A stretch of 64,000 bases of DNA from Polytrichum commune (Eukaryota > Streptophyta > Polytrichopsida > Polytrichales > Polytrichaceae). Positions 2,201-53,000 of the stretch are shown piece by piece. A model generated the notes under the pieces. That model saw only the letters and a list, made by a program, of their open reading frames with translations. It searched no databases and had not been told where the DNA came from. The stretch lies in NCBI GenBank assembly GCA_950295325.1, contig OX485805.1, positions 54,770,758 to 54,834,757 on the forward strand, read 5' to 3'. The first letter of the stretch is position 1, and each line of letters begins with the position of its first letter. The position numbers and the translations under genes are program-made.

Positions 2201-3310
2201 ATGGTTACAACGAGGAGCCAACATTATCGTTCGCCGTCTCCAACATCATCACAAGGTCGATCCTCAGACCTTTTGGACAGTGAACCAGTGGTAGCACCCG
2301 ACGAGGCTTTTAAGCCTACTTCGGCGTGGGGGACTGCCACTCGGTCTTACGTCCATTGGGTGGGATCCTTCGACGAGATGGAGGAGGAGTCAAGAGGCGG
2401 CATTCGAGACCGATTTTCTGGTCGAGCAGGGACCATTTCCTTGCAAGATTGGAAAATCCGGTTCAGAACATGGATGAGGGAGAAACGTCAACGCAATACC
2501 AACTTCAACGATTGGTACGCGTTCGAGCTTCTACCACAACATTTAGAGCACGAAGCTCTCCAGACCTATGAGCAATGGACGGATGCTCATTGGATGGAGT
2601 TGCGCCAAGTGGAGCGGTACTGGGAGACTCGGGTTGAGTTGGTATCCGCATTGAAGGAAGGCGCAGCTTCCAGTATGATGGCCGTTCCTGAGGTTAAGAC
2701 GGAGGTACAGGAGGGAGTATACGAGGTGGATGTGGAGGAAGCTTTTCCTATCAATCCCACGGCTCAGGGCCAAGCTCCCGCAACGGCGAGTACCTCGAGC
2801 CCCATTCTTCCACTGTCACGTTATGCCCAGGCTACCCAGGCGGCATTAGCTTCTTTAGGAGCTCCGCCGGGTTTTGATCCTCTACAGGAATTCCAACTCC
2901 ATTTGGAGGAGGAATATGGAGGCTTCCGCCGCGATCAAATGCAGCGTATCCAGGACTTTCGACGGGAGAAAGATGACACACCTCGTACCATGTACACGAG
3001 GTTGGCGAGGTTTGCCAGAGAATCTGGAGGTGTTTTCGCCGAGAGCCAGTTGGTAAAGGTGTTTTTGTCAAAGCTTGACAAACGCCTCATTGACTTAGCT
3101 TTACCCAGGATCATCATGGATCATGGTGGCCGAGCGACACTTGCGGAAGCTTTCGCCATTGTTGAGCAGTGTGATCGTGCCTTGTGTCAGCACGACGCCA
3201 CTGACTTGGTGTCCATGCTAGTGGATTCTAGCAAATCCCGGAAGGTTCCGGTTGCGGCTGCGGGATTGGCGGAGGCAGATGTGGACAAGATCTTGCATTG
3301 TTGGTCTTGT
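2201..3310 (+). CDS. Gag, N-terminal part (host element ORF1, piece 1)
   Basis: This is the structural protein of the DNMT-carrying Ty3 element. The start is the ATG at 2201 (MVTTRSQHYRSPSP), a basic, Ser/Pro-rich N-terminus common in plant gypsy Gag. The segment LQDWKIRFRTWM and the later FRREKDDTPRTMYTRLARFA resemble the retrotransposon Gag capsid domain that assembles the virus-like particle. The frame is cut at 3310 by a solo LTR with CTTGT target duplication. It resumes at 4288 in the same frame, completing the zinc knuckle whose first two cysteines are just before the break (CWSC). The frame reads on into LTR sequence to 3559, but that extension is an artefact. ORF1 has no stop from here through the methyltransferase. 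Confidence 0.85.
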
Positions 3311-4282
3311 TGTCGCGCACCTCTCCATGAGGAGTGCCCGAAACACCATGGGCACAAGGGGGACCCCGGAGTGACACCCGGGACTTGTGGCGCCGTTGGT
3401 GAGAAGGCCCAAGTGATCCTAGTGTGGGTGAGGGCCCCGGGCGTTGGGAACGCCTCCCACCCACGGAGACTAGGAGGCAGAAGGGTTAGGCATGAGCTAT
3501 GCGTAGCTCATGGCGTGGTGATTCTAGAATGCTCAAGATCACCTCAATCGGAGGTGTGAGCTAGGAGTTATGGCCATTTGAGTGGGGCGCTGTCCCGGGA
3601 CAGCGCCCTGGTACAGCAGTGCCTGGGAGTGATTCCCGGGACTGCCAAGGTTCAAACAGGCATAACTTCCTCAAGACTTTCCCGAATGGGGCAAGTGAGG
3701 AGTCCATCGGCATCTACGTGAAGCGTAGATGAAGATAGAGTGGTCAAGTGTTAGCATCAGACATCATACAAGGAAGTTATGATGGTCTGAAGCTGCTGGG
3801 GGGTTCTAGGCCCAGCAGCTAAGGGAAAGTGTCCACTTGGCCCCAACTCTTGGTAGAGAGACAAGAGGTTGGTTGACGGCAGGGTAGGGGCCCCGCGTAG
3901 AGTCCTAGAGGCTTATATGGGTGAGGTAGTGTGGCCTCACCCACCCGAGGCCGAACGGCAAGGCCTCCATGGGCATTGGCCCATTGTGAGGCCATAGTTG
4001 CCTAGTATGGTTCAGGTTGTTGTAGTGTTGCTCCGGCAATGCGATGATCAACATGAGATTGGACTTCCATGGATGGAAGTCCACATCTAGGAATGGGTTA
4101 CCGATTAAGGGGTGAGTCCCGAAAGCAAAGTAGGAGGGTTGGTTCCCTCCTATGAACTATAAGGTCCGGGGTAGGAGGAGCTAACCATTGGCATGGCGGA
4201 ATGCGAATGATTAGCGCTCGTAACCTTTGCTAGAATTGAAAATTGGCAAGATTGTCAAGGGGGGCTAGCAAGGGTTGCGACA
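3311..4282 (+). mobile_element. Solo LTR, plus orientation (family L)
   Basis: This 972 bp solo LTR starts TGTCGC and ends GCGACA. It is flanked by the 5-bp target duplication CTTGT (3306-3310 and 4283-4287). It matches the LTRs of E1 and E2 along its length with scattered differences. It interrupts the first zinc knuckle of the host Gag. A solo LTR with intact duplication implies full-length insertion followed by LTR-LTR recombination. Confidence 0.95.
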
Positions 4283-4628
4283 CTTGTGGACAGGCGGGCC
4301 ATGCTAAGAAGGATTGTCCTTCGAAGCATAGGCAAGCCCAGACCGTCACTACTCCGAAGCGGAAACCATTTGTTCCCGCTAAGGGCTCGACGAAGGGGAC
4401 GGGTAATCAGTTATCCAAACAGTTGAAGTGTTCTCATTGTGGGCGGAACAATCACGCGGTGGAGAATTGCTTCGCTCTCCATCCTGAGAAACGTCCTTCT
4501 TCTGACCGGGAGAAGACGTTGGAGGCGAAGATTGGAGCCTTGGAGGAGAGGTTCAAAAGCTTGGCGTCATCCGGCCAAATTTTGGCCTCACCGTCTTCCT
4601 CCGCAGCTCAGGCTAGTTCTTCCACTCC
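4283..4628 (+). CDS. Gag zinc-knuckle region (host element ORF1, piece 2)
   Basis: This is the nucleocapsid part of Gag, which binds the element RNA. The first knuckle is completed here (GQAGHAKKDC after the upstream CWSC), giving C-x2-C-x4-H-x4-C. A second full knuckle follows: CSHCGRNNHAVENC. Downstream is a short heptad-like stretch (EKTLEAKIGALEERFKSL) that could form a coiled coil, then an Ala/Ser-rich linker. The frame is interrupted at 4628 by E1 (duplication ACTCC) and resumes at 11686 in phase. Two successive knuckles are typical of many plant Ty3 Gag proteins. Confidence 0.85.
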
Positions 4629-5603
4629 TGTCGCGCACCTCTCCATAAGGAGTGCCCGAAACACCATGGGCACAAGGGGGACCCCGGAGTGACACCCGGG
4701 ACTTGTGGCGCCATTGGTGAGAGGGCCCAAGTGATCCTAGTGTGGGTGAGGGCCCCGGGCGTTGGGAACGCCTCCCACCCACTGAGACTAGGAAGCATGA
4801 GGGTAAGGCCATGAGCTATGCGTAGCTCATAGCGTGGTGATTCTAGAATGCTCAAGAACACCTCAATCGGAGGTGTGAGCTAGGAGTTATGGCCATTTGA
4901 GTGGGGCGCTGTCCCGGGACAGCGCCCTGGTGCAGCAGTGCCTGGGAGTGACTCCCGGGACTGCCAAGGTTCAAAGAGGCATAACGTCCTCATAACTTGC
5001 CCAAATGGGGCAAGTGAGGAGTCCATCGGCATCTACGTGAAACGTAGATGAAGATGGAGTGGTTGGTTGTTATGATCAGACATCATACAAGGAAGTTATG
5101 ATGGTCTGAAGCTGCTGGGGGGTTCTAGGCCCAGCAGCTAAAGGAAAATGTCCACTTGGCCCCAACTCTTGGTAGAGAGACAAGAGGTTGGTTGACGGTG
5201 GGGTAGGGGCCCCGCGTGAAGTCCTAGAGGCTTATAGGGGTGAGGTGGTGTGGCCTCACCCACCCGAGGCCGAACGGCAAGGCCTCCATGGGCTTTGGCC
5301 TATTGTGAGGCCATAGTTGCCTAGTATGGTTCGGGTTGTTGTAGTGTTGCTCCGGCAACGCGATGATCAACATAGGATTGGACTTCCATGGATGGAAGTC
5401 CACATTGGGGAAATGGGTTACCGATTAAGGGGTGAGTCCCGAAAGCAAAGTAGGAGGGTTGGTTCCCTCCTATGAACTATTGGTCCGGGGTTAGAGGAGC
5501 TAACCATTAGCATGGCGGTATGCGAAGGGTTAGCCACTCGTAACCTTTGCTAGAATTGAAAATTGGCAAGATGGTCAAGGGGGGGCTAGCAAGGGTTGCG
5601 ACA
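4629..5603 (+). repeat. E1 5' LTR
   Basis: 975 bp, TGTCGC to GCGACA. It contains a perfect 24-bp palindrome with arm GGGCGCTGTCCC (4903-4926) and several smaller hairpins (for example arm GACTTCCAT near 5381). Family-diagnostic variants are CCATAAGG near the start and GCCATTGG at the hairpin region. Confidence 0.93.
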
Positions 5604-5605
5604 CT

Positions 5606-5623
5606 TGGTATCAGAGCAGGGTT
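5606..5623 (+). promoter_or_regulatory. E1 primer binding site
   Basis: TGGTATCAGAGCAGGGTT lies 2 nt after the 5' LTR. TGGTATCAGAGC is the standard plant site complementary to the 3' end of initiator-methionine tRNA. Confidence 0.9.
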
Positions 5624-6225
5624 CCAATATTTGAGCTAGCACTTTGAGGTAGACATGGGTATCAAAAATGCGGGTTATGATGGTGAGCCCGGGGTTTCCA
5701 AAAGGTGTGAGGCTCAAATTGGAACAAGGGTCATGTGCAAATGAATTTTGACCATACCATTGATTCTAATGACAATGGTGGGCATGAGGGTGGATTTGGT
5801 AAGGAAAATGGAGGAGTGCTTTGAAAAGGGCTCCCGCAAACCTCAAAAAACATTTGGGGCCTAGAATACCGAAAGCACCCAAAACCTTGGAGGGCATTAA
5901 TGTTGGATTGAAATTCCAATTCGAAATGCTTGGAAGGCATTGATGTTGGAATGAATTTGGTGCTAATGAGGCACCCGGGGCCTCTTAAGGCCTATGTGTG
6001 CTATTCAAACGCACAAATGAAGGATACACCTAAAACGGACGAACTTTCTAAGAAATGCATCCTTTTAGGTGGGGTTTTAAAAGCGGGTGGTGGATGCCTT
6101 GTTTAAGTCCCCAAGGCTTCTTGAGGACATGGTGGGGACCATCAAGTTTGCAAGAGCATTGAAGCCGATGGTCCCAAAGAGAAGTTTGGCGGCGCATCAC
6201 CACAAGCGGCTTTAGCAAAAGTAGG
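5624..6225 (+). pseudogene. E1 gag-region relic
   Basis: Only short open stretches remain and no Gag motif is recognisable. The position after the primer site and the presence of a matching segment in E2 (from about 16419) suggest former gag. I cannot support any protein function. Confidence 0.3.
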
Positions 6226-6600
6226 TCCCAAAGAAATGAGTGCAAATTGTTTGGTCCATTTTACTTAGGCAAAACATGTTGGTGCCGCGGACGGAATGTT
6301 GAAAGGTGGCTTTATGCTTCCAAAGCAAATCATACTTGTGCCGCGGACGGAATGTTGGGAGGTGGGTTTGTCCTACCAAGGCAATTCATGTTCGTGCCGC
6401 AGACGGAGTGTGGGAAGGTGGCTTTGTGCTACCAAGGCAAAACATGTTTGTTTTGCGGACAAACTATTAGAAATTGGTTTTGTGGCACCAAACCAATTTG
6501 TCCCGCGCACGAAATGTTTGAAGTTGGCTTTGCGGACCAAGCCAAGCCAAGTTGCGGAGGACCAAATGTAAGACGATGGCATTGTGGCCAAGGCTAGTAG
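6226..6600 (+). repeat. E1 tandem array of about 56 bp units
   Basis: About six units share the phrase GTGCCGCGGACGGAATGTT, with clear starts at 6282, 6338 and 6394. The period is about 56 bp, so successive units fall in different frames. Translations are rich in Cys and Gly (for example GKTCLFCGQ). A homologous array lies at about 17020-17395 in E2. Confidence 0.7.
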
Positions 6601-6723
6601 CCTTAAGCCGAGGCCAAGTCTTTTGTACCTTGAGGCTCAAATGAATGGGAGGCTTGTCTCATGGGTTGACAAAGAGTTAAGGCATTCTTTCATGACGCCG
6701 AAAGCTCACAAGGGAGTTGGGGT

Positions 6724-7430
6724 TTGCCGATTGGTAGAGTGGTGAAGCCCACCAAGGTGCGGTTTGGAAAGGGCGAACCGCATGAGACAAAGGAGGCCGC
6801 GATGCATGTAACTTTTCAATGTGGGACATTGGAATTTTGTCAAAATTTCACACCATGGGAAATAGATGAAATGCATGTCATTGTGATGGCCGCCTTCTTT
6901 GAAACTCACATGATAGATGTGAGGTGCAAGCCGGTGTGCTTGCAGTGCATTATGATGTGTCATAATGGCAAAGAATTGAAGTTCAAATTGACAAGAACTC
7001 CTATGGTAGGAGGACCCGAGTTGAATTTGGTCTTAATAGACCAAATGAAAAATAGAAAACATAATGGTCATGGTTCAATTGGAGCAACTCCAATGAACGT
7101 ATGGGGAGGCTAGGAAAGATGGGCCTCCCCCAAACTACATTGGTGGGATGTTGGTGAAATACAAGGATGTATTCACCAATGTGTTGCCCAAAAAGTTACC
7201 GCCAAGGAGTGAAAAAGAACTTTGCTTAACGAGAGATTGAGTTCTTGAGGTATGTGGTGACAAAGGAAGTTGGTGGACGAACATGAAGAATGTGAAGGCA
7301 ATCCAAAAGGAGAATTGGCCCTTCATTCAAAAAAGGCTTAGGTCATTTGTTGGCCTAGCCAACTACTACCACCACTTCATTCGAGAGTTTTTGAAGGTTG
7401 CTAGGACCTTATTCACCTTATTGAGGGAAA
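6724..7430 (+). pseudogene. E1 protease/RT-region relic
   Basis: An open stretch at 6724-7113 has no recognisable active site. At 7337-7400 a frame gives RSFVGLANYYHHFIREF, matching the conserved end of gypsy reverse transcriptase before RNase H. Most of the reverse transcriptase itself, including the YxDD box, is missing. Confidence 0.5.
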
Positions 7431-7431
7431 T

Positions 7432-8110
7432 GGCTATCCCAAGAGTGGGATGAGCCTTGTCGCCAAGCCTTTGGGGAGCTCAAGAGCAAGTTCTCTTCAC
7501 AAGATGTGATTAAGTTTCCGGGTTTTCATAAGCATTTTGAAGTGCACATGGAGGCGAAGGATTTTACCATTGGTGGATGTTGATCCAAGATGGATGACCA
7601 TTGCTTGTGGGAGCATTAAGCTCCATGGTTGTCGAACCTTGTCCGGCTTGTCCAAGGAATGGTTATCCCAAGAGTGGGATGAGCGTTGCCACAAAGTCTT
7701 TAAGGAGCTTAAGACGAAGTTCTCTTCGCCGCCCGTGCTCAAGTTTGCGAAATTTGACAAACCTTTTGAGGTGCATACGGGGGCGAGTGACTTTGCCATT
7801 GGCGGATGGTTAACGTAAGATGGATGGCCATTGCATATGAGAGCGTTAAGCTTGATGGTTATCCGACCTTATCCGACTTGTGGAAGAAATGAGTATCCCA
7901 AGAGTGGGATGAGCCTTGCCACAAAGTCTTTGGGGAGCTTGAGAGCAAGTGTTCTTAGACGCCCGTGCTCAAGTTCGCGGAGCTTGACAAACCTTTTGAG
8001 GTGCATACGGGGGTGAGCGACTTTGCCAATGGTGGATTATGTGTAATTAGATGGCCATTGCATATGGGAGCATGAAGCTCGATGGTTGTCAAAGAAGACA
8101 ACCAACTCAA
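7432..8110 (+). repeat. E1 triplicated RNase H-start segment
   Basis: Three tandem units begin TATCCCAAGAGTGGGATGA at about 7434, 7663 and 7893, a period of about 229 bp. Each encodes a version of the start of the gypsy RNase H domain (FKELKTKFSSPPVLKFAKFD, then the FEVHTGASDFAIGG part). Units are diverged and carry stops. The same triplication is in E2 (18227-18860), so it predates both insertions. Confidence 0.75.
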
Positions 8111-8504
8111 GATAAAGAATTTCTTTGCCGTAGTGCATTGCTTGAAGATGTGGCGACACTATTTGGGGTTGCACAAAGCAAAGGTCTACATGGACAATGT
8201 GTCCTAAAAGAATTTTGACATTCAAGCGTAAGGGAGCGCCAAGTCATTGCGGTGACATGATAGTTTGGCGCTTATGAAGGTGGATTTGATCCACAAACCG
8301 GACCGTGGAAATGTGGTGCCGGATGCGCGAAGTAGACCGGAAAAATTCCAAGCAATGAGAACCATCCAAACCTTGTGGCTAATGTGTGCCGGCGAAGGAA
8401 ACTTGTGATGCAAGATACGGGAGGGGTAAATTAACTACCCCAAAGCACAAAAGCTTTTAGGTGAGCTTCGCAAGAGCAAGGTGCTCAAATAGGTTAAGTT
8501 GGTG

Positions 8505-9461
8505 GACGGATTGTTCAAGTGCAAGCAAAGTTGGGTGTATGTGCCACAAGGCAAGTTGAGGCTATCGGTTTTGAAGGAGGAATTTGATAGTCCTATTGCC
8601 GGCCTTAGAGGAGAAAGAAAAAAACGCCATAGAATGGAGGTACCATTGGCGGTGCATAAAGGAAGATATAGCCTACTTTGTGAAGGCTTGAATCAAAGTG
8701 CCAAGTGAACCGAGCCTCTTACCAAAAGCAAGGCGGTCTCTTGCAACCGTTGCCTATCCCGTCGGCGCCATGGCATAGTATGTGCATGGACTTGATCACA
8801 AGTTTGCCGGAGTCACATGGATATGATGCCATCTTGTTGATGGTTGAGCGGTTTGCCAAGTTGGCACACATGGTGCTGATTGTGGAAACCGCCACCGCGT
8901 TGGAGACCGCATAGCCTTTTCTCAAAGGATGGTTGAGGCACCACGGGTTGCCAAGAGTGATTGTGTGGGATCAAGATCCAAAAGTTCACAAGTGCATTTT
9001 CAATGCATTTCTCTAAGGAGGTCGGAATGAAACTAAGGTTTAGCACGGCCTTGCATTCCCAAATGAATGGGAAAGCGGAGCATGTGAATGGAGTCTTGGA
9101 GCAATACTTGAGGAACTTGGTGGGGGCGGACCAAGGAGATTGGGCGGACTATGTGGGTCGAGCGGAGTGTAATTGCAATGTAGCCACGCACTTGGCTACC
9201 AAGGGGTGGTCTTTGGTGGTGGCTTATGGAGTGGATGCGCTCCAACCTATTAACCTAGCTCTCGAGGGGGCACATTCAACACTAGAGTTCAACCAAGATG
9301 GTGAGGATTTGGCCAAGGATGGTGAACAAGTCTTGGAGATGACCAAGTTGTTGGTGGAGAAAGCCCGAAGGTGCTACGGAGTGCAAGTCAATGCCGGAAG
9401 ACGCGAAGTGGAGTATGAGGTGGGCCAAAAGGTGTTGTTGAATGTGAACAACTTCACTTAG
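8505..9461 (+). pseudogene. E1 integrase relic
   Basis: Gypsy integrase core remnants are visible in order. There is MCMDLITSLPESHGYDAI with the first catalytic Asp, a damaged IVWDQDP around the second Asp, and an Asn-rich GKAEHVNGVLEQYLRNL around the catalytic Glu. The zinc-binding region has lost a cysteine to a TGA at 8689-8691, and a TAG at 8912-8914 cuts the core. E2 has both stops at homologous places. A one-base frame change near 8980 is specific to E1. No functional integrase can be made. Confidence 0.8.
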
Positions 9462-10690
9462 CCGGAAGGCCTCACTCCAAAGTTCATGTCCAAAATTGGA
9501 GCTTTGTTTTCCATTGTGGAACAAGTGTTCAAGGACATGTATAGATTGGAATTACTACCGGAGATCAAAGTGCATCCGACATTTCATGTCTCATTACGAA
9601 AGTCATTTTAGGACGACACCTTGTGGCCTGAACACAAGCAAGTGATTAGGCCATGTCCCGACCTTGTGGACGTCATTTGGAACATGAGGTAGGAGGGCAT
9701 CCCCAAGTGTAGGAAGCCCAAGTGAAAATGAAAGAAAATGTACAAAGGAGTAGTTGGTGAAATGGTGAGGATACCATGAGAAAGAAGCCGTTTGGGTAGC
9801 GGCAAGAGACATGATGAACGCCAAGGAATTGGTAAAGCACTTTGAAGAAACTAAGGCTAGACATTCCAATAAAATGAAGCGTAGGCATTGATGAGGACAT
9901 CAATCTCCTTTAGTGGGGGAGAGACGCTAGTAGCACACTTAGCTTCGAGGTTAATTATGCCACAACATGAACTTGTTCTTTGGCTTGAGGGAATAAAGTC
10001 CAAACTTTAGTGGTGCAAAGAGAAAAGTATGAGATGAGGTCCTAGTCTTGTACTTGTGCTTGGTTAATGGAAGAGGGGGAATAGATATGCCAAACTAGGT
10101 TGGGTAAGCCGAGTAATTGGGGGCCATGGCTTGGAGGGGCCTTGGATAAAACCAAGAAACTTCTTAGTTGTGGGCTTGTCCGGGCGGGGGCGAGGTGATG
10201 GCGCGTGCTCATAAAAGTGCTACCCGTGAGCTAACGAGAGTTGGCGCATGGGAGTCATGAACCCATGTCTCGAAAGAGCAAAGTGGGAACCGAGTCGGGC
10301 GGGACTTGGCATCACCCCCGTGCGATCGAGGCGTGGCTTAACAATGGAAAGCCATCTCGGAGTTGCAACCGAGACAACTTAGTGGAAGCGTTGAGGTCTC
10401 GCCTAGATGTGTCACGTTAGGCTAGTGGAGCCTAACGGGGGAGGCCCCAAAGGAGGGGCAACCCAAGTGAGTCCCAAAGTAGGTGGGTCTAGTATAGGTT
10501 AGGTCCTTGGATAAGAGATCCAAGGTCGCTAACGGACCACCTAGGAACGACACCTTTGGGACTATGCCAAATTTGAAGATGCATTGTGGGGGTCGCGCCC
10601 TAAGGTAAACACAATGCCGCACCATAGAGGATGGCAACTTGAGAATTGGTGTGCCGACTACGAGTATAGTCGATGAGGGCATCGACTCCG
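9462..10690 (+). other. E1 3' internal region, no intact gene
   Basis: The first part (to about 9890) continues the end of pol, with a PEIKVHPTFHVSLRKSF-type tail like the region before a chromodomain, broken by stops. From about 9900 the sequence is non-coding and closely matched in E2 (20700-21490). Confidence 0.5.
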
Positions 10691-10705
10691 TTTGGTGGGG
10701 GTGAG
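10691..10705 (+). promoter_or_regulatory. E1 polypurine tract
   Basis: TTTGGTGGGGGTGAG ends immediately before the TG of the 3' LTR, where plus-strand DNA synthesis would start. The E2 copy at 21491-21505 is identical. Confidence 0.8.
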
Positions 10706-11680
10706 TGTCGCGCACCTCTCCATAAGGAGTGCCCGAAACACCATGGGCACAAGGGGGACCCCGGAGTGACACCCGGGACTTGTGGCGCCATTGGTGAGAG
10801 GGCCCAAGTGATCCTAGTGTGGGTGAGGGCCCCGGGCGTTGGGAACGCCTCCCACCCACTGAGACTAGGAAGCATGAGGGTAAGGCCATGAGCTATGCGT
10901 AGCTCATAGCGTGGTGATTCTAGAATGCTCAAGAACACCTCAATCGGAGGTGTGAGCTAGGAGTTATGGCCATTTGAGTGGGGCGCTGTCCCGGGACAGC
11001 GCCCTGGTGCAGCAGTGCCTGGGAGTGACTCCCGGGACTGCCAAGGTTCAAAGAGGCATAACGTCCTCATAACTTGCCCAAATGGGGCAAGTGAGGAGTC
11101 CATCGGCATCTACGTGAAACGTAGATGAAGATGGAGTGGTTGGTTGTTATGATCAGACATCATACAAGGAAGTTATGATGGTCTGAAGCTGCTGGGGGGT
11201 TCTAGGCCCAGCAGCTAAAGGAAAATGTCCACTTGGCCCCAACTCTTGGTAGAGAGACAAGAGGTTGGTTGACGGTGGGGTAGGGGCCCCGCGTGAAGTC
11301 CTAGAGGCTTATAGGGGTGAGGTGGTGTGGCCTCACCCACCCGAGGCCGAACGGCAAGGCCTCCATGGGCTTTGGCCTATTGTGAGGCCATAGTTGCCTA
11401 GTATGGTTCGGGTTGTTGTAGTGTTGCTCCGGCAACGCGATGATCAACATAGGATTGGACTTCCATGGATGGAAGTCCACATTGGGGAAATGGGTTACCG
11501 ATTAAGGGGTGAGTCCCGAAAGCAAAGTAGGAGGGTTGGTTCCCTCCTATGAACTATTGGTCCGGGGTTAGAGGAGCTAACCATTAGCATGGCGGTATGC
11601 GAAGGGTTAGCCACTCGTAACCTTTGCTAGAATTGAAAATTGGCAAGATGGTCAAGGGGGGGCTAGCAAGGGTTGCGACA
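10706..11680 (+). repeat. E1 3' LTR
   Basis: 975 bp, same length as the 5' LTR and no difference found by eye. It ends GCGACA, directly followed by the ACTCC duplication and then host coding sequence. Confidence 0.93.
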
Positions 11681-11685
11681 ACTCC

Positions 11686-14020
11686 GGATTACTATATGTT
11701 CGGAGCCTCGGGCGAGGTGGTGAGTTCTGCAGCTGTGACACGTGCTCAAACCGTGTCACGAGCCACGCCTTCGACCACAGGAGAGTCTGTGGACAGCTTA
11801 CGAGCTCGGCACAATGGTCCCGCGGATCAGATTGGTCAGGCATGCCTTCCATTGTCTTTTGGATTGGCTGATGCTGCCCAATCTGTCAGTGGTCGCAATT
11901 CGAGCTTGGAGGCTTCGAGTCCGTCGACCGACGTGGTGCACACTTTGGCATCCAAAGTGTTGCACACGCCTTTGTTCACAGCGATGGATTGGTCGTCATC
12001 CAATATCCAACCAGCTAAGGTTTTTTACCTAGCAGGTAGGATATTGGAGGGGAAGGCAACCCCGTCTTCTCTTACTGTGGCTCAAGCAACCGCAGACCTT
12101 CCTACCACGGAGGATCCTGAGGAAGCCGCCAAACGGCGAGCGAGGCTTGCAGAGGAGGCCATTGCGTCTTTTGACGCACACACCTTGGATGGCCAGGAGC
12201 CAACTACATCTTATCATTCACCAGCCTCTGCAGGCGCAGCTTATCTATCCGATGTAGCTGCTCGACCTGCTCGCGAGCGTCGAGGCATTCGACCTGGCGT
12301 TGTACGGATGGTGAATGATACCGGCATTTTGGTGGTCAGTCGCACTGGGAGCAATGTTACTCAGGTTGCTCCCCGTTGTGTGATGATGGATTCAGGGGCA
12401 CAGCCAGTTATGATCGGCAAGAGGCTTGCCCAAGAGTTGGGGTTGACGGCCGAGGATTTGGCTCCCTGTCCATTCACCATTGTCACATCCATTGGTCACG
12501 TGGAGCGGGCCACGGGATATACTCGGGAGCCATTACAGCTTAGCTTCCGAGTGAAGCCTGGAGATTCACCCGCACCTCTTCTTCTTAGGTGTGCGGTGAC
12601 GGATGCGACCAACTATGACATTTTAGTTGGTCAGCAAGCACTTTATCCTCTTGGTTTTGGTTTGGACAACTGGACTGAAGAGGCGTGGATCCGACCAGGT
12701 TGGTCAATTGGGGATGGCCGCAGGGAACTTATTCCCGTGGCTTTCGCGGCAGCCGCGACCATAGCACCATTATCTATGGTTTTTGGATGTGGTGCTATGG
12801 TGGACGCATTGTCTTATGGTTCCGCATTGTTGGATGAGTCATTGGCGTTCATGGGGAGTACAGACGATCCACGGGATATGGCACCTAAGGGTGCATTGGT
12901 GCGCCATCCCAAGGATCCCCTCCCTCCTTGGCGTGATTCCGCCGAGCTATTTCGAAGGTGCGAGAATATTGTTCACTCTCTCACTCCTAGGACACCGGTC
13001 ATACCGGGTGTCCTCTCGGCATTGGCACATCCCATTTTATGGCAGCCGCCAGACGCGGGAATTACTTTGGTGGAACTGTTTGGGGGCATCGGCACAGGCT
13101 TAGCGGCCGTATTGGAGGCTGGCCTCACGGTTAGACGATATGTCTATGTGGACAACTCTCAAGTGTCCACCCGTGTGGCTCGTCATCATCTTCACCAATT
13201 GATGGTATTGTACCCCCAGCAGTTACCTCCAACTGCCATTCGTGGGTGTTTTTCACGTCTCCCTCGTGATGTCACACTCATCAGTGAGGCCGATTTACGA
13301 CACTTGGGTCCAGTGGATATGGTGATTGCGGGATGGCCATGCCAGGGCCATTCACGTGCTGGAGCAGGCGGAGGACTAGAGGATACCAGGTCTAGTCTAT
13401 TTTGGGACCTCATTCGTCTCATGCAGTGGTGGTATTCCCACCAATTTTCCCCTCCAGCGTATATTTTCGAGAATGTACCTATGTTCGGAGACTCCCGGGC
13501 CAAGGTGGTGGAAGGCGATCATTATGTTCGTCAACACCTTGGAGATCCAATTTTTGTAGATGCTGCGAGCATTGGTTCTTATGCCCACCGGCCTCGGTGG
13601 ATTTGGACCAACCTCACACCATCATCTACATTAGCTGCAGCATTTTCTGCAGTGCCTCCACCTTTTGATCAAAAGGTGGACAACATCTTGGATCCAAACC
13701 GGACTTCTTTGCCGGTTGTCCGAGATGATTTACCCCCATTGGCATTGGTCAACAAAGTGGGGGCACCACGGCGGGCTTTTCCCACATTTATGACGTTTCC
13801 ACAGTCATTTGCTTTCCGCGATCAGGGGCCAGGTATGGTGTGGGATGCTCACACCAAAACCCACACCGAACCATTGGCAGATGAACGGGAGCGTGCAATG
13901 GGATTTCGCACTGGCACCACCGCAGCTCCTGGCCTTTCTGAAGGCCAACGACGCTTCGTATTGGGCCAAGCCATGGATCTTCATACTATGGTGTGGACTG
14001 TTGGTTTATGTCTTTCATAG
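11686..14020 (+). CDS. Protease and C5 DNA methyltransferase (host element ORF1, piece 3)
   Basis: An aspartic protease comes first (CVMMDSGAQPVMIG; active-site Asp codon at 12388, later YDILVGQQAL). The second half is a cytosine-C5 methyltransferase. Motif I is VELFGGIGTG (about 13069-13098), the catalytic GWPCQGHSRAG has its Cys codon at 13340-13342, and motif VI is IFENVP (about 13464-13481). The motif VIII-like AHRPRW and the C-terminal ERERAMGFRTG and RFVLGQAMD complete the fold. All landmark residues of an active enzyme are present, so it should transfer methyl groups from S-adenosylmethionine to cytosine. It is fused in frame downstream of Gag-protease. The ORF ends with TAG at 14018-14020. 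Sequence upstream of 11686 in this frame is nested LTR. Why the element carries it is unknown; silencing of rivals or protection of its DNA are inferences. Confidence 0.9.
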
Positions 14021-14319
14021 CAAAGGCATTGTGGTGACCAGTGGTTGCCTCTGGGGGCAGAGAACTCTGGTCAGGGGGCACAACGGTCCACATCCATTGA
14101 GGAGGGAATTCATGCCATGGTTGGAGAAGCCGAACGAATTTCTCAATTCGAGCAGCATGTAATGGAGGAGCTTCGAGCTCAACATTTTTACACTGCTTCG
14201 GCTTCTTCGCCTCCGGTGGTGGCTTCATCATCACATATTGGTGGTGTGATGAAGAAATGCCAGACTCTAGTGCTAGCACTGAGACTGGGGGCATGGTTAA
14301 TGCTCCCTCCTCTCATTAG
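14021..14319 (+). other. ORF1-ORF2 junction with two stops and a frame change
   Basis: After the TAG at 14018 the same frame stays open to 14326 and looks coding (for example EAERISQFEQHVMEELRAQH). The RT frame, one base back, looks coding from about 14256 (DEEMPDSSASTETGG) but has a TAG at 14317-14319. Two stops and one frame change fall within 300 bp, while neither ORF has any over the remaining 6.9 kb. This may be a translational control region, or the only decayed part. Confidence 0.5.
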
Positions 14320-15424
14320 CAATTAGAGTCTGTGCCAGCATCAGGTAGTTCTCCTTTGGTGGAGAGGGAGACTACAGAGTTTGATGATTGGCCACTTGAA
14401 TTAGGCCCTCGTCTCACTGGTGCTGAGGCACGTAAGGTACGAGCATTTATTCGCTCGTACCGTAGATGTTTTGCTTTTAGTCTTCAGGATCTTGAAGGTT
14501 ATAAAGGAAAACCCATCCACATTCAGTTGGAGGACGACCATCCCATTTTTCGGAGACCTTACAGGCTCAGTGTTTCCGAGCGGATTGGCGTTCAGGCTCG
14601 TTGCCGAGAGCTCTTGGCAGCAGGGCTAATCGAACTTTCCAACGGGGAGTATGCTTGTGCTACGGTTATGCCATCGAAGAAGGATATCTTTGGCAATTGG
14701 ACGGAGAAACGGATGTGTGGGGATTACCGTCCAGTTAATCGGAAGACCAAGTCGGATCGGTATCCCATGCCGATTCCGGAGGAGTTGTTCGATGCCATCG
14801 GATTTTCTCGGGTCTTTAGCACCTTGGACTTGAGATCCGGATATCACCAACTTCCATTACTTACGGGAGATCGGGTGAAGACCGCATTTTGGGGAGTTGA
14901 TCAAGATGGGAAAGATCAACTTTATCATTGGAAGTTTCTTCCATTTGGCCTGAAGAATGCACCCGCTAAGTTTCAGCGGGTGATGGATCAGGTTCTCTCT
15001 GGCTTGCCCTTTGCTCGGTGTTACATAGACGATGTGATCATCTTCAGCACAACACCACAGGAGCATGTGAGGCATCTGCAAGCCGTTTTTGAACGGTTGC
15101 AGCGGTGGGGATTGCGCTTGCACCACGGCAAGTGCAAGTTTTTCCATGACCGGTTGGCATATTTGGGACATATGATTGTTCCAGGAGGTCTTGGGGTACA
15201 ACAAGCTAAGGTGGACGCATTGCAGAAGATTCCGGCACCGGTAGATGTGCCGAGACTTCGTGCTTTCTTGGGCTTGGCGAATTACTATCGGCGATTCGTC
15301 AAAAACTTTAGCTTGATTGCCAAGCCGCTCACCATTCTCACGAGCAAGGACCAACCTTGGTCTTGGGGTCGTGAGCAGCAACAGGCATTTGAGACATTGA
15401 AGCAGAAACTGGGTACGGCTCCAG
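14320..15424 (+). CDS. Reverse transcriptase (host element ORF2, piece 1)
   Basis: This is the RNA-dependent DNA polymerase of the element. The approach segment HIQLEDDHPIFRRPYRLS leads to the canonical gypsy RT: CGDYRPVNRKT, FSTLDLRSGYHQL, FLPFGLKNAPAKFQRVMD and the catalytic YIDDVIIFS (codons 15022-15048). The thumb and connection follow (LRAFLGLANYYRRFV). The frame opens at 14320 after a TAG; no ATG is obvious, so entry by readthrough or frameshift from ORF1 is plausible. At 15424 the frame is cut by E2 and resumes at 22484 in phase. The tail to 15444 is LTR sequence. Confidence 0.9.
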
Positions 15425-16398
15425 TGTCGCGCACCTCTCCATGAGGAGTGCCCGAAACACCATGGGCACAAGGGGGACCCCGGAGTGACACCCAGGACTT
15501 GTGGCGCCGTTGGTGAGAGGGCCCAAGTGATCCTAGTGTGGGTGAGGGCCCCGGGCGTTGGGAACGCCTCCCACCCACTGAGACTAGGAAGCATGAGGGT
15601 AAGGCCATGAGCTATGCGTAGCTCATAGCGTGGTGATTCTAGAATGCTCAAGAACACCTCAATCGGAGGTGTGAGCTAGGAGTTATGGCCATTTGAGTGG
15701 GGCGCTGTCCCGGGACAGCGCCCTGGTGCAGCAGTGCCTGGGAGTGACTCCCGGGACTGCCAAGGTTCAAAGAGGCATAACGTCCTCATAACTTGCCCAA
15801 ATGGGGCAAGTGAGGAGTCCATCGGCATCTACGTGAAACGTAGATGAAGATGGAGTGGTTGGTTGTTATGATCAGACATCATACAAGGAAGTTATGATGG
15901 TCTGAAGCTGTGGGGGCTTCTAGGCCCAGCAGCTAAGGGAAAATGTCCACTTGGCCCCAACTCTTGGTAGAGAGACAAGAGGTTGGTTGACGGTGGGGTG
16001 GGGGCCCCGCGTGAAGTCCTAGAGGCTTATATGGGTGAGGTGGTGTGGCCTCACCCACCCGAGGCCGAACGGCACGGCCTCCATGGGCATTGGCCCAATG
16101 TGAGGCCATAGTTGCCTAGTATGGTTCGGGTTGTTGTAGTGTTGCTCCGGCAACGCGATGATCAACATAGGATTGGACTTCCATGGATGGAAGTCCACAT
16201 TGGGGAAATGGGTTACCGATTAAGGGGTGAGTCCCGAAAGCAAAGTAGGAGGGTTGGTTCCCTCCTATGAACTATTGGTCCGGGGTTAGAGGAGCTAACC
16301 ATTAGCATGGCGGTATGCGAAGGGTTAGCCACTCGTAACCTTTGCTAGAATTGAAAATTGGCAAGATGGTCAAGGGGGGGCTAGCAAGGGTTGCGACA
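15425..16398 (+). repeat. E2 5' LTR (mosaic)
   Basis: 974 bp. Up to about 15875 it carries the variants of the E1 LTRs (ACTGAGACTAGGAAGC, AACGTCCTCATAAC). After about 15910 it carries those of its own 3' LTR (GTGGGGGCTTCTAGG). The switch falls in a shared stretch at about 15875-15911. Confidence 0.9.
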
Positions 16399-16400
16399 CG

Positions 16401-16418
16401 TGGTATCAGAGCAGGGTT
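16401..16418 (+). promoter_or_regulatory. E2 primer binding site
   Basis: TGGTATCAGAGCAGGGTT lies 2 nt after the 5' LTR, as in E1. It fits initiator-methionine tRNA. Confidence 0.9.
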
Positions 16419-18226
16419 CCAAGTTTTGAGCTCGCACTTTGAGGGAAACATGGGTATCAAAAATGCGGGTTATGATGGTGAGCCCGGGGTTTCCAAAAGG
16501 TTGTGAGGCTCAAATTGGAAAAAGGATCATGTGCAAATGGAGTTTGACCATACCATTGATTTTAATGGTAATGGTGGGCATGAGGGTGGATTCGGTGAGG
16601 AAAATGGAGGTGTCCTTTGAAAGGGCTCCCGCAAACCTCAAATAGTATTTGGGGCCTAGAATACCGAATGCACCCAAAACCTTGGAGGGTATTAATGTTG
16701 GATTGAAATTTCAATTCGAGATGCTTCGAAGGTTCGGATGTTGAAATGAACTTGGTGCTAATGAGGCACCCGGGGCCTCTTAAGGCCTATGTGCGCTATT
16801 CAAATGCACAAATGAAGGATACACCTAAAACGGACGAGCTTTCTAAGAAATGCATCGTTTTAGGTGGGGTTTTAAAAGCGGGTGGTGGATGCCTTGTTTA
16901 AGTCCCCAAGGCTTCTTGAGGACATGGTGGGGATCATCGAGTTTGCAAGATCATTGAATCCGATGGTCCCGAAGAAAAGTTTGGCGGCGCATCACCACAA
17001 GTGGCTTTAGCCAAAGTTGGTCCCAAAGAAATGAGTGCAAATTGTTTGGTTCATTTTACTTAGGCAAAATATGTTGGTGCCGCTAACGGAATGTTGAAAG
17101 GTGGCTTTATGCTTCCAAGGCAAATCATACTCATGCCGCGGACGGAATGTTGGAAGGTGGGTTTGTCCTACCAAGGCAATTCATGTTCGTGCCGCATACG
17201 GAGTGTGGGAAGGTGGCTTTGTGCTATCAAGGGAAAACATGTTTGTTTTGTGGACAAATTATTGGAAATTGCTTTTGTGGCACTAAACCAATTCGTCCCA
17301 CGGACGAAATGTTAAAAGTTGGCTTTGCGGACCGAGCCAAAACATATTGTTGCGGTGGACGGAGAATTAGATGGTGGCTTTGTGGCCAAGGCTAGTAGCC
17401 TTAAGCCAAGGCCAAGTCATGTATACCTTGAGGCTCAAATGAATGGGAGATATGTCTCATGAGTTGTCAAAGAGGCAACGGACTCTTTCATGAGCCGAAA
17501 GCTCACAAGGGGGTTGGGGCTCGCGGACGGGTAGAGCCGGCAAGCCCACCAAAGTACGGTTTGCAAAGGGCAAACCGCATGAAGCAAAGGAGGCGGCGAT
17601 GCATGTAACCTTTTGATGTGGGATATTAGGTTTTTGTCAACATTTCACTCTATGTGAAATAAATGAGGTGCATGTCATTGGAAAGGTCACCTTCTTTGAA
17701 ACTCACATGAGAGATGTGAGGTGCAAGCCGGTGTGCTTGCGGTGCATTATGATGTGTCATAATGGCAAAGAGATGAAGTTCAAATTGATAAGGACTCCTA
17801 TGGTAGGAGGACCCAAGTTGAATTTGGTCTTAATGGACCAAATGAAAAATGGCCAACATAATAGTCGTGGTTCAATTGGAGCAACTCGATAGAACTTATG
17901 GGGAGGCTAGGAAAGATGGGCCTCCCCTAAACCACTTTGGTGGGATGTTGGGGAGATACAATGATGTATTCACCAATGTGTTGCCCAAAAATTACCGCCA
18001 AGAAATGAAAATAACTTTGCTCAACAAGAGATTGAGTTCTAGAGGTATGTGGTGACAAAGGAAGTTGGTGACAAACATGAAGAATATCAAGGCCATCCAA
18101 AAGGAGAATTGGTCCTTGACTCAAGAAAATGGCTTAGGTCATTTATTGGCCTAGCCAACTACTACCACCACTTCATTCGAGGTTTTTCTAAGGTTGCTAG
18201 GACCTTAGTCAATTTGTTGAAAAAAT
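16419..18226 (+). pseudogene. E2 gag/protease/RT-region relics with 56 bp array
   Basis: This is homologous to 5624-7431 of E1. The array of about 56 bp units lies at about 17020-17395. The RT-end relic RSFIGLANYYHHFIRGFSKVAR is at about 18135-18200. No catalytic motif survives and stops are frequent. Nothing here can be assigned a working product. Confidence 0.5.
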
Positions 18227-18860
18227 GGCTATCCCAAGAGTGGGATGAGCCTTGTCACCAAGCCTTTGGGAAGCTCAAGAGCAAGTTCCCTTCACAAGAT
18301 GTGGTTAAGTTTCCGGGTTTTCATAAGCATTTTGAGGTGCACATGGAGACGAAGGACTTTATCATTGGCGGATGTTGATCCAAGATGGATGCCCATTGCA
18401 TATGGGAGCATTAAGCTTAAAGGTTGTCAAACCTTGTGCGACTTGTGAAAGAAATGGCTATCCCAAGAGTGGGATGAGCCTTGCTACCAAGTCTTTGAGA
18501 AGCTTAAGAGCAAGTTCTCTTCGCCGCCCGTGCTCAAGTTCGCGGAGTTTGACAAACCTTTTGAGGTGCATACGGGGGCGAGTGACTTTACCATTGGCGG
18601 ATGTTGAGGCAAGATGGATGGCCATGGCATATGAGAGCATGAAGCTCGATGGTTGTCCCACCTTGTGCGACTTGTGGAAGAAATGGCTATCCCAAGAGTG
18701 GGATGATGTTTGTCACGAGTCTTTGGGGAGCTTAACACCAAGTTTTCTTCGCCGCCCGTGCTCAAGTTCGCGGAGCTTGACAAACCTTTCGAGGTGCATA
18801 CGGGGGTGAGTGCCTTTGCCAATGGTGGATTATGTGTAAGATGGATGGCCATTGCATATG
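18227..18860 (+). repeat. E2 triplicated RNase H-start segment
   Basis: Three units start at about 18227, 18456 and 18685, a period of 229 bp, as in E1. The third is followed by a partial fourth-like tail. Confidence 0.75.
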
Positions 18861-19277
18861 GGAGCATGAAGCTCGATGGTTGTCAAAGAAGACAACCAAC
18901 TCATGACAAAGAACTTCTTTGCCGTAGTGCATTGCTTGAAGATGTGGCGACATTATATGGGGTCGCACAAAGCAAAGGTCTACATGGACAATGTGTCCTA
19001 AAAGTATTTTGACATACAAGCGTAAGTGAACGCCAAGTCATTGCGGAGGCATGATAGTTTGGCGCTTATGAAGGTGGATTTGATCCACAAACCGGACCGT
19101 GGAAATGTGGTGCCGGATGCGCGAAGTAGACCGGAAGAGTTCCAAGCAATGAGAACCATCCAAACCTTGTGGCTAATGTGTGCCGGCAAAGGAAACTTGT
19201 GATGCAAGATACGGGAGGGGTAAATTAACTACCCCAAAGCACAAAAGCTTTTAGGTGAGCTTCGCAAGAGCAAGGTG

Positions 19278-20231
19278 CTCAAAGAGGTTAAGTTGGTGGA
19301 CAGATTGTTCAAGTGCAAACAAAGTCGGGTATATGTGCCACAAGGCAAGTTGAGGCTATCGGTTTTGAAGGAGGAATATGATAGTCCTATTGCTGGTCAT
19401 AAAGGAGAAAAAGACAACCGCCGTAGAATGGTGTCAAGGAGGTACCATTGGCCGAGCATAAAAGAAGATATAACCCACTTTGTGAAGGCGTGAATAAAGT
19501 GCCAAGTGAACCGAGCCTCTTATCAAAAGCAAGGCGGTTTCTTGCAACCGTTGCCTATCCCGTCGGCGTCATGGCATAGTATGTGCATGGACTTGATCAC
19601 AAGTTTGCCGGAGTCACATGGGTATGATGCCATCTTGTTGATGGTAGAGCGGTTTGCCAAGTTGGCACACATGGTGCCGATTGTGGGAACCGCCACCGCG
19701 TTGGAGACCGCATAGCCTTTTGTCAAAGGATGGTTGAGGCACCACGGGTTGCCAAGAGTGATTGTGTGGGATCAAGATTCAAAGTTCACAAGTGCATTTT
19801 CAATGCATTTCTCTAAGGAGGTCGGAATGAAACTAAGGTTTAGCACGGCCTTGCATCCCCAAATGGATGGGAAAACGGAGCGTGTGAATGGAGTCTTGAA
19901 GCAATACTTGAGGAACTTGGTGGGGGCGGACCAAGGAGATTGGGCGGACTATGTGGGTCGAGCGGAGTGTAATTGCAATGTAGCCACGCACTTGGCTACC
20001 AAGGGGTGGTCTTTGGTGGTGGCTTATGGAGTGGATGCGCTCCAACCTATTAATCTAGCTCTCGAGGGGGCACATTCAACACTAGAGTTCAACCAAGATG
20101 GTGAGGACTTGGCCAAGGATGGTAAACAAGTCTTGGAGATGACCAAGTTGTTGGTGGAGAAAGCCCGAAGGTGCTACGGAGTGCAAATCAATGCCGGAAG
20201 ACGCGAAGTGGAGTATGAGGTGGGCCAATAA
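19278..20231 (+). pseudogene. E2 integrase relic
   Basis: The integrase core is better preserved than in E1: MCMDLITSLPESHGYDAI, then VIVWDQDSKFTSAFSMHF, then DGKTERVNGVLKQYLRNL, covering the catalytic D, D and E. It has the same TGA in the zinc-binding region (19491-19493) and the same TAG (19713-19715) as E1. A frameshift near 20229 ends the last open part. The shared stops show that both elements descend from an already broken source. Confidence 0.8.
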
Positions 20232-21490
20232 GGTGTTGTTGAATGTGGACAACTTCACCTTGCCCAAAGGCCTTACTTCAAAAGTTCATGTCCAAAATTG
20301 GAGCTTCGTTTTCCATTGTGGAACAAGTGTTCAAGGACATGTATAAGTTGGAATTACCGCCGGAGATCAAAGTGCATCCGACATTTCATGTCTCATTACG
20401 AAAGTCATTTTAGGACGACACCTTGTGGCCCGATCACAAGCAAGTGATTAGGCCACCTCCCGACCTTGTGGAGGTCATTTGGAACATGAGGTAGGAGGGC
20501 ACCCTCAAGTGTAGGAAGCCCAAGTGAAAATGAAAAAAAATGTACAAAAGAGTACTTGGTGAAATGGTGAGGATACCATGAAAAAGAAACCGCTTGGGTG
20601 GCGGCAAGAGACATGGTGAACACCAATGAATAGGTGAAGCACTTTGAAGAAACTAAGGCTAAGGATTCCAATAAAATGAAGCGTAGGCATTGATGAGGAC
20701 ATCAATCTCCTTTAGTGGGGGAGAGACGCTAGTAGCACACTTAGCTTCGAGGTTAATTATGCCACAACATGAACTTGTTCTTTGGCTTGAGGGAATAAAG
20801 TCCAAACTTTAGTGGTGCAAAGAGAAAAGTATGAGATGAGGTCCTAGTCTTGTACTTGTGCTTGGTTAATGGAAGAGGGGGAATAGATATGCCAAACTAG
20901 GTTGGGTAAGCCGAGTAATTGGGGGCCATGGCTTGGAGGGGCCTTGGATAAAACCAAGAAACTTCTTAGTTGTGGGCTTGTCCGGGCGGGGGCGAGGTGA
21001 TGGCGCGTGCTCATAAAAGTGCTACCCGCGAGCTAACGAGAGTTGGCGCATGGGAGTCATGAACCCATGTCTCGAAAGAGCAAAGTGGGAACCGAGTCGG
21101 GCGGGACTTGGCATCACCCCCGTGCGATCGAGGCGTGGCTTAACAATGGAAAGCCATCTCGGAGTTGCAACCGAGACAACTTAGTGGAAGCGTTGAGGTC
21201 TCGCCTAGATGTGTCACGTTAGGCTAGTGGAGCCTAACGGGGGAGGCCCCAAAGGAGGGGCAACGCATGTGAGTCCCGAAGTAGGTGGGTCTAGTATAGG
21301 TTAGGTCCTTGGAGGAGTTCCAAGGTCGCTAATGGACCACCTAGTAACGACACCTTTGGGACCATGCCAAATTTGAAGATGCATTGTGGGGGTCGCGCCC
21401 TAAGGTAAACACAATGCCGCACCATAGAGGATGGCAACTTGAGAATTGGTGTGCCGACTACGAGTATAGTCGATGAGGGCATCGACTCCG
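20232..21490 (+). other. E2 3' internal region, no intact gene
   Basis: This is homologous to 9462-10690 in E1. It has a broken end of pol to about 20690, then non-coding sequence. Confidence 0.5.
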
Positions 21491-21505
21491 TTTGGTGGGG
21501 GTGAG
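21491..21505 (+). promoter_or_regulatory. E2 polypurine tract
   Basis: TTTGGTGGGGGTGAG lies immediately before the 3' LTR, identical to E1. Confidence 0.8.
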
Positions 21506-22479
21506 TGTCGCGCACCTCTCCATGAGGAGTGGCCGAAACACCATGGGCACAAGGGGGACCCCGGAGTGACACCCGGGACTTGTGGCGCCGTTGGTGAGAG
21601 GGCCCAAGTGATCCTAGTGTGGGTGAGGGCCCCGGGCGTTGGGAACGCCTCCCACCCACGGAGACTAGGATGCACAAGGGTAAGGCCATAAGCTATGCGT
21701 AGCTCATGGCGTGGTGATTCTAGAATGCTCAAGAACACCTCAATTGGAGGTGTGAGCTAGGAGTTATGGCCATTTGAGTGGGGCGTTGTCCCGGGATAGC
21801 GCCCTGGTACAGCAGTGCCTGGGAGTGATTCCCGGGACTGCCAAGGTTCAAACAGGCAAAACTTCCTCACCACTTGCCTGAATGGCGCAAGTGAGGAGTG
21901 CATCGGCATCTACGTGAAGCGTAGATGAAGATGGAGCGGTCAAATGTTAGCATCAGACATCATACAAGGAAGTTATGATGGTCTGAAGCTGTGGGGGCTT
22001 CTAGGCCCAGCAGCTAAGGGAAAATGTCCACTTGGCCCCAACTCTTGGTAGAGAGACAAGAGGTTGGTTGACGGTGGGGTGGGGGCCCCGCGTGAAGTCC
22101 TAGAGGCTTATATGGGTGAGGTGGTGTGGCCTCACCCACCCGAGGCCGAACGGCACGGCCTCCATGGGCATTGGCCCAATGTGAGGCCATAGTTGCCTAG
22201 TATGGTTCGGGTTGTTGTAGTGTTGCTCCGGCAACGCGATGATCAACATAGGATTGGACTTCCATGGATGGAAGTCCACATTGGGGAAATGGGTTACCGA
22301 TTAAGGGGTGAGTCCCGAAAGCAAAGTAGGAGGGTTGGTTCCCTCCTATGAACTATTGGTCCGGGGTTAGAGGAGCTAACCATTAGCATGGCGGTATGCG
22401 AAGGGTTAGCCACTCGTAACCTTTGCTAGAATTGAAAATTGGCAAGATGGTCAAGGGGGGGCTAGCAAGGGTTGCGACA
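21506..22479 (+). repeat. E2 3' LTR
   Basis: 974 bp. It carries private variants in its first half (GAGTGGCCGAAAC, CAATTGGAGG, a mutated centre palindrome GGGCGTTGTCCC) but matches the E2 5' LTR in the second half. Confidence 0.92.
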
Positions 22480-22483
22480 CCAG

Positions 22484-24369: not shown

Positions 24370-25342
24370 TGTCGCAACCCTTGCTAGGTCCCTTAACAAT
24401 CTTGCCAATTTTTAATTCTAGCAAAGGTTACGAGTCGCTAACCCTTCGCATTCCGCCATGCTAATGGATAGCTCCTCTTACCCCGGACCAATAGTTCATA
24501 GGAGGGAACCAACCCTCCTACTTTGCTTTCGGGACTCACCCCTTAATCGGTAACCCATTTCCCCAATGTGGACTTCCATCCATGGAAGTCCAAGCCCATG
24601 TTGATCATCGCGTTGCCGGAGCAACACTACAACAACCCGAACCATACTAGGCAACTATAGCCTCACAATGGGCCATTGCCCATGGAGGCCTTGCCGTTCG
24701 GCCTCGGGTGGGTGAGGCCACACCACCTCACCCATATAAGCCTCTAGGACTTCATGCGGGGCCCCTACCCCACCGTCAACCAACCTCTTGTCTCTCTACC
24801 AAGAGTTGGGGCCAAGTGGACATTTTCCTTTAGCTGCTGGGCCTAGAACCCCCCAGCAGCTTCAGACCATCATAACTTCCTTGTATGATGTCTGATCATA
24901 ACAACCAACCACTCCATCCTCATCTACGCTTCACGTAGATGCCGATGGACTCCTCACTTGCCCCATTCGGGCAAGTGGTGAGGAAGTTATGCCTGTTTGA
25001 ACCTTGGCAGTCCCGGGAATCACTCCCAGGCACTGCTGTACCAGGGCGCTGTCCCGGGACAGCGCCCCACTCAAATGGCCATAACTCCTAGCTCACACCT
25101 CCGATTGAGGTGTTCTTGAGCATTCTAGAATCACCACGCCATGAGCTACGCATAGCTCATGGCCTTACCCTCGTGCCTCCTAGTCTCCGTGGGTGGGAGG
25201 CGTTCTCAACGCCCGGGGCCCTCACCCACACTAGGATCACTTGGGCCCTCTCACCAACGGCGCCACAAGTCCCGGGTGTCACTCCGGGGTCCCCCTTGTG
25301 CCCATGGTGTTTCGGGCACTCCTCATGGAGAGGTGGGCGACA
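24370..25342 (-). mobile_element. Solo LTR, inverted (family L)
   Basis: This 973 bp solo LTR is in minus orientation. On the plus strand it starts TGTCGCAACCC and ends GGGCGACA. The target duplication is AGAAA (24365-24369, 25343-25347). It splits the PHD finger of the host integrase ORF between its first and second cysteine pairs. Confidence 0.95.
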
Positions 25343-25347
25343 AGAAA

Positions 25348-25891: not shown

Positions 25892-25893
25892 GC

Positions 25894-26335: not shown

Positions 26336-26383
26336 AAGGGTAGTTAGTAGCTGGATTCACTATAAAGTCACTAGGACTGGGGT

Positions 26384-52998: not shown

Positions 52999-53000
52999 AT

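Follow-up and report, generated by a model that had tools for sequence, protein, structure and literature searches.

Does a cytosine-5 DNA methyltransferase (DNMT) located among retrotransposon genes of Polytrichum commune form a standing part of the mobile element, and what might the element do with it? The locus lies in a stretch of 64,000 nucleotides (the window), for which a preliminary description had proposed a Ty3 retrotransposon with an apparently intact C5 methyltransferase between protease and reverse transcriptase (RT). The domain set and order bear this out. Self-comparison and inspection of flanking bases delimit one Ty3-type retrotransposon at positions 127-26335, with four family-X insertions inside it that are flanked by 4- or 5-bp duplications (Table 1). 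The start of 11686 given earlier was nearly right for the open reading frame at 11624-14020, whose first 57 bases (11624-11680) belong to the LTR of an inserted X element, but the element as a whole is far longer. Likewise, "apparently intact" is accurate for the DNMT domain but not for the window copy, in which ORF1 stops early (14018-14020) and ORF2 is in another frame; its coding pieces are each open when translated apart.

Table 1. Features of the retrotransposon copy in the window, numbered from the first nucleotide of the window.
Feature	Position	Strand	Remarks
Left target-site duplication AAGG, 4 bp	123..126		Partner 26336..26339
Terminal repeat A1	127..461	+	Starts TGTCACGG; 2 differences/335 between A1 and A2
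A1 segment complementary to primer site, candidate self-primer	251..265	+	
Candidate primer-binding site	462..476	+	Adjoins A1
ORF1 piece 1, Gag	2201..3310	+	Colinear with uninterrupted copies
Insertion, solo LTR of family X	3311..4285	+	Duplication CTTGT
ORF1 piece 2, CCHC zinc-knuckle region of Gag	4288..4628	+	Pfam zf-CCHC weak
Insertion, full X element	4629..11680	+	Identical LTRs; duplication ACTCC
ORF1 piece 3: linker, aspartic protease, DNMT	11681..14017	+	Protease DSGA, ~12380-12520
DNMT3-type C5 methyltransferase domain	13055..14017	+	Motifs I to X, normal order
ORF1 stop of window copy	14018..14020	+	Earlier than in uninterrupted copies
UAG-CAA-UUA	14317..14325	+	ORF1/ORF2 stop of related copies; putative readthrough
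ORF2 piece 1, RT (YIDD)	14320..15422	+	
Insertion, full X element	15423..22480	+	LTRs 96.9% identical; duplication CCAG or CCAGT
ORF2 piece 2: RNase H, H2C2 zinc finger, DDE integrase core, PHD first half	22483..24366	+	
Insertion, inverted solo LTR of family X	24367..25345	-	Duplication AGAAA
ORF2 piece 3: PHD second half and C-terminus	25348..25500	+	PF00628 E=2.5e-11
Polypurine tract	25775..25784	+	Adjoins B1
Repeat B1	25785..25891	+	Ends CACGACA; 0 differences/107 between B1 and B2
GC of fused-end joint	25892..25893	+	CACGACA-GC-TGTCACG
Repeat A2	25894..26228	+	
Repeat B2	26229..26335	+	Right end of element
Right target-site duplication AAGG	26336..26339		Partner 123..126

The order of domains is Gag with two CCHC knuckles, protease, DNMT, RT, RNase H, H2C2 finger, DDE integrase and PHD finger. 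Protease, RT, RNase H and DDE integrase in this order, together with a Ty3-like RT, make the element a member of the Ty3/Gypsy group, the protease match being weak. The RT matches PF00078 and has Ty3 RT as its best solved match; the Pfam matches of protease and zinc knuckle fall below the cut-off, and these calls draw mainly on the DSGA and CCHC motifs, while the Gag piece at 2201-3310 has no Pfam match above the cut-off. Plant chromoviruses, which are also Ty3 elements, carry a chromatin-reader domain downstream of the integrase. A reader also occupies this place here, but it is a PHD finger (uninterrupted in copy L021), and no Chromo match was found after the integrase at E values up to 1.

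The X element at 15423-22480 poses an age paradox of its own. Its LTRs carry ~30 differences in 977 positions compared to 2 in 442 for the repeats of the host element (Fisher p 0.0015), so the younger insertion looks older than the element that it entered; mixed LTRs or gene conversion may be the explanation. Elsewhere in the window are a 68-bp tandem repeat just downstream of the element (26373-26653), a different retrotransposon Gag ORF on the minus strand (45258-47732; 824 aa, zinc knuckle; PF03732, PF00098), three long ORFs at 40089-43968 that have no Pfam match at E up to 0.001, and a pair of 540-bp repeats that are 91% identical (53000-53529 and 62799-63339).

By nearest sequence and nearest fold among solved structures, the methyltransferase is of the DNMT3 type. 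The ORF matches Pfam DNA_methylase above the cut-off (E=4e-12), and its first sequence match among solved structures is DNMT3A (7e-11). An AlphaFold model of the domain (14 sequences, mean pLDDT 85.8) retrieves DNMT3B and DNMT3A first in Foldseek (8xee, E=2e-17). Motifs I, IV (PCQ), VI (ENV) and VIII, along with the protease DSG pattern, are present in all eleven copies compared (the window and ten others), and motif X is present in all except L019; the motifs that had been named in the preliminary description thus all match the window copy and nine of the ten others. Some distant relatives have Glu in place of the Pro that precedes the catalytic Cys. Because its motif order is normal, the domain is not a DRM, and a DRM origin was rejected on this ground and on the rearranged order in the DRM of the host itself. 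The latter gene (L057) has its rearranged motifs spread over at least two exons and DRM2 as its best solved match (1e-46). The available text of a 2025 paper describes DRM as confined to streptophytes (PMC12344493).

It had been asked at the outset whether the domain might belong to a host gene present once in the genome, or be missing from other copies of the element. We searched the 407.8-Mb genome, of which seven long contigs make up 406.1 Mb. A PF00145 profile search gave at least 123 matches from 353 first-look candidates, a DNMT3A query gave at least 148 matches of 150 scored, and the two combined define at least 176 distinct places, one of which is an exon of the host DRM. The domain is therefore no single-copy gene, and this domain-rearranged DRM is the only host gene recognised among the places listed; none of the 148 matches listed for the DNMT3A query, in which element copies dominate, could be recognised as a true host DNMT3 gene, which does not imply that the host lacks one. 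Nor is loss of the domain general. Among the 112 best RT loci (of 2337 first-look candidates), 109 have DNMT sequence upstream, some as fragments only: 83 have a listed DNMT place 0.7-3.7 kb upstream, and 26 of the remaining 29 reveal DNMT sequence by tblastn, several fragmentary, in the 1.3 kb that were read. Only L072, L074 and L085 have no DNMT in that 1.3 kb.

Twenty further copies were picked from the PF00145 matches for a long open ORF1 (1289-1386 codons), ten of them read over 15 kb and ten at the ends only, and the sample is mostly young as a consequence of this choice. The DNMT sits with Gag and protease in ORF1 in all ten uninterrupted copies that were fully read. In nine of these, ORF1 (1366-1386 codons) ends with UAG-CAA-UUA or UAG-CAA-UCA, and likewise in nine of ten ORF2 lies downstream in the frame of ORF1. 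In L011, L019 and L023, ORF2 is truncated or disrupted, and a frame change is found in L027. Tobacco mosaic virus has its leaky stop in the context UAG-CAR-YYA. A DNMT encoded ahead of such a stop would be produced in Gag amounts.

Two repeat layouts are found among integrated copies. Sixteen of 21 copies have the arrangement A-body-B-gc-A-B (the window, L013, L015, L017, L019, L021, L025, L027, L029, L031, L033, L035, L037, L039, L041 and L047), and the other five are A-body-B with the same ends (L009, L011, L023, L043 and L045); the layout of L037 and L043 was read at the right end alone. Every one of the 19 copies with both ends seen has a perfect 4-bp duplication at the start of A and the end of B, judged by eye from the flanks, and neither a second isomer nor ordinary LTR ends occur among these 19. 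The joint CACGACA-GC-TGTCACG has 138 exact occurrences, compared to 0 for the reversed control. It lies 3.52-3.55 kb downstream in 12 of the 14 RT loci on contigs C1-C4 that have an uninterrupted ORF2, and within 2.8-6 kb of 34 of the 68 RT loci listed on these contigs.

DIRS and PAT elements, which use a tyrosine recombinase, have direct repeats that are split, and they carry the joined ends again internally. The present element has both the split repeats and the internal joined-end copy, but it encodes a DDE (rve) integrase and no tyrosine recombinase, and it is bounded by target-site duplications. Assignment to the tyrosine-recombinase elements was ruled out on the integrase and on the 4-bp duplications in 19 of 19 copies.

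With the polypurine tract adjoining B1 and the primer site adjoining A1, reverse transcription should yield [B-gc-A]-body-[B-gc-A], whereas the integrated ends are the start of A and the end of B. Such ends would follow if the integrase cut the joint, most simply on a circle, which suggests DDE integration from a fused-end intermediate. This circle model does not explain the absent second isomer. Random cutting of a two-unit circle is not favoured, since two isomers would be expected and a single one is present in 16 of 16 copies, assuming that the copies are independent.

The same one-sidedness among the 16 copies speaks for a route that dispenses with the circle, in which templated reverse transcription would produce a linear A-body-B-gc-A-B, and A-body-B copies would derive from it later, when recombination between B1 and B2 deletes the intervening part. 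We regard this as a real possibility, if not the leading one. Within a subfamily the A2/B2 junction does not vary (eight copies compared), and B1 and B2 are direct repeats at short distance, so A-body-B could indeed be a later product of their recombination. However, A-body-B copies are ~99.4% identical to A-body-B-gc-A-B copies (L011 versus L013, L023 versus L027), and any such deletion must therefore have been quick.

Initiation of reverse transcription may be self-primed. Nucleotides 462-476, the 15 nt after A1, are an exact complement of 251-265, and the second subfamily uses another pair, of 11 nt, with a primer site that starts 4 bases further left. Complementarity of 11-15 nt is present in 8 of 8 copies tested from the two subfamilies. 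When the leader of the window copy is folded in silico as RNA, the segment pairs with the primer site (z -4.42; none of 200 shuffles did as well). In Tf1 of fission yeast, the 5′ RNA is complementary to a primer site that directly follows the terminal repeat. A Tf1-like mechanism is thus predicted from sequence complementarity, with the difference that the 11-15 nt complement lies inside repeat A here.

Purifying selection on the DNMT is evident from comparison of coding sequences between two subfamilies, for which dN is ~0.27, dS ~2.4 and dN/dS 0.11-0.13 (Nei-Gojobori; dS near saturation). The corresponding ratios, with dS again near saturation, are 0.09-0.13 for protease, 0.04 for RT and 0.05 for integrase. 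Values from near-identical pairs are noisy, as with the protease of the window versus L021 (1.35), or the linker (2.8) and integrase (0.41) of L021 versus L025. Within subfamily 1, dS between L021 and L025 spans 0.007 to 0.24 by region, and the copies accordingly look like mosaics.

Around the architecture, copy number, purifying selection, 4-bp duplications and two repeat layouts, all established from the genome sequence, we place a reading that we consider moderately probable: this is a high-copy Ty3-type family whose Gag-side polyprotein includes a DNMT3-type enzyme as a permanent component under selection. ORF1 would be translated in surplus, with Pol (RT, RNase H, integrase and PHD) arising by readthrough of the leaky UAG, which would place many DNMT molecules in each particle. 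The 5′ RNA would anneal just after repeat A and prime reverse transcription. The DNMT would then methylate the new DNA copy or a circular intermediate, which would arrive marked like host heterochromatin; the DDE integrase would cut the fused-end joint and insert the element, creating a 4-bp duplication. The PHD finger may help to choose chromatin at insertion, and the products would be A-body-B or A-body-B-gc-A-B.

Selection on the DNMT does not name its substrate, and the enzyme may be kept by selection because it acts on the host, or on RNA, instead of on the DNA copy of the element. The accessible text of the 2018 study of algal and dinoflagellate elements considers that LINE-type enzymes might methylate RNA, and that the host genome might be a target (PMC5890265). 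Nor was CpG depletion, as a sign of self-methylation, found in ten copies relative to two X elements: observed/expected CpG is 0.65-0.74 in the former, 0.59 and 0.61 in the latter, and 0.41 to 0.88 in the flanks. As the copies do not fall below the X elements, there is no trace of methylation decay, and CpG content lends no support to the proposed self-methylation. Against a host or RNA substrate, encoding the DNMT in the Gag-side polyprotein suggests that it acts inside the particle, and the modelled fold is nearest to the DNA-acting DNMT3 rather than DNMT2. We consider such a substrate unlikely.

The enzyme encoded within the Gag-side polyprotein has relatives elsewhere. A length-limited protein search in which 7992 candidates were scored recovered at least 44 of them. 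Among the matches listed, environmental relatives range from 70% to 36% identity, with the best fourteen at 65-70%, and the named relatives are from Calypogeia fissa (51%), Marchantia polymorpha (43-50%) and Closterium (35%). The closest relative listed, P0001 (70%), is filed under a Candidatus Obscuribacterales MAG and is probably plant DNA binned as bacterial. The DNMT is joined with RT and RNase H in a single Marchantia protein (P0027), and it follows RNase H or precedes the integrase in P0034, P0037, P0038, P0041 and P0042. In two of these, the environmental Pol proteins P0034 and P0038, the DNMT immediately precedes the integrase and a PHD finger is also present; P0034 additionally carries a Tudor-like domain.

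In a 44-row tree, which omits the fragmentary P0035, P0036, P0039 and P0040 and has an unsure root on a distant DNMT3A fragment, those five proteins form a clade (100/99), as do Marchantia, Calypogeia and P0018 (100/99), and the window copy is placed with the other copies of the element and with environmental rows (100/99). One capture followed by relocation within Pol fits this pattern, short of proof. The idea that a host DNMT gene was captured recently and by chance, and now decays in a small number of copies, can be dismissed given DNMT sequence at 109 of 112 RT loci, a dN/dS of ~0.11 at near-saturated dS between subfamilies, and relatives in liverworts, a desmid and environmental contigs.

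Retrotransposon-borne DNMTs are already known as a kind, having been described in LINE and DIRS elements of dinoflagellates and in a Gypsy element of Klebsormidium (de Mendoza et al. 2018, PMC5890265). In the accessible text of that paper, the Klebsormidium DNMT had no activity in yeast, a test that its authors called inconclusive. A 2019 opinion paper states, in the text available, that DNMT-bearing transposons are absent from land plants (PMC6338049), and we found no report of bryophyte examples in the accessible open-licence PMC literature.

The question left by the preliminary description, whether this is the charophyte element, receives a mixed answer. Compared by text description only, KnitGypsy-Dnmt3 of Klebsormidium nitens shares the Gypsy domain set, an intronless DNMT3-type domain, DIRS-like repeats and purifying selection on the DNMT (PMC5890265). 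However, its DNMT is in the Pol ORF rather than with Gag and protease before an in-frame stop, and the main text of the paper makes no mention of PHD. SymbioDIRS-Dnmt3 of dinoflagellates, as described in the same text, has a DNMT3-type domain and A-body-B-A-B repeats but a tyrosine recombinase in place of a DDE integrase with 4-bp target duplications (PMC5890265). Orchid Gypsy elements with an AlkB m6A demethylase likewise combine Ty3/Gypsy with a nucleic-acid modification enzyme, but from the text consulted it is an RNA demethylase rather than a DNA methyltransferase (PMC9289625). Split repeats had been noted in 2018, and the available text gives no mechanism for them (PMC5890265). The details that are apparently new are the high copy number in a streptophyte genome, the liverwort relatives, the location of the DNMT with Gag ahead of a UAG-CAR-YYA stop, the presence of a PHD finger downstream of the integrase and the occurrence of two integrated forms.

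Tyrosine-recombinase elements are believed to cut a fused-end joint in circular cDNA. A more speculative and distinctly doubtful extension is that a Ty3 lineage left ordinary LTR integration, with its DDE integrase cutting the joint of circular cDNA and a packaged DNMT methylating the circle before joining or integration. If true, the DNMT would contribute to replication itself, and the association of DNMTs with split repeats in both DIRS and Gypsy elements would have an explanation.

These findings extend retrotransposon-borne DNMTs from algae into land plants, with proteins named for Marchantia and Calypogeia in the same family. The fused-end joint and clean 4-bp duplications offer a handle on a DDE integrase that works with split repeats, and a genome with many copies is a place where self-methylation could be examined on long reads. 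An element of a sort normally silenced by host DNA methylation may itself methylate DNA.
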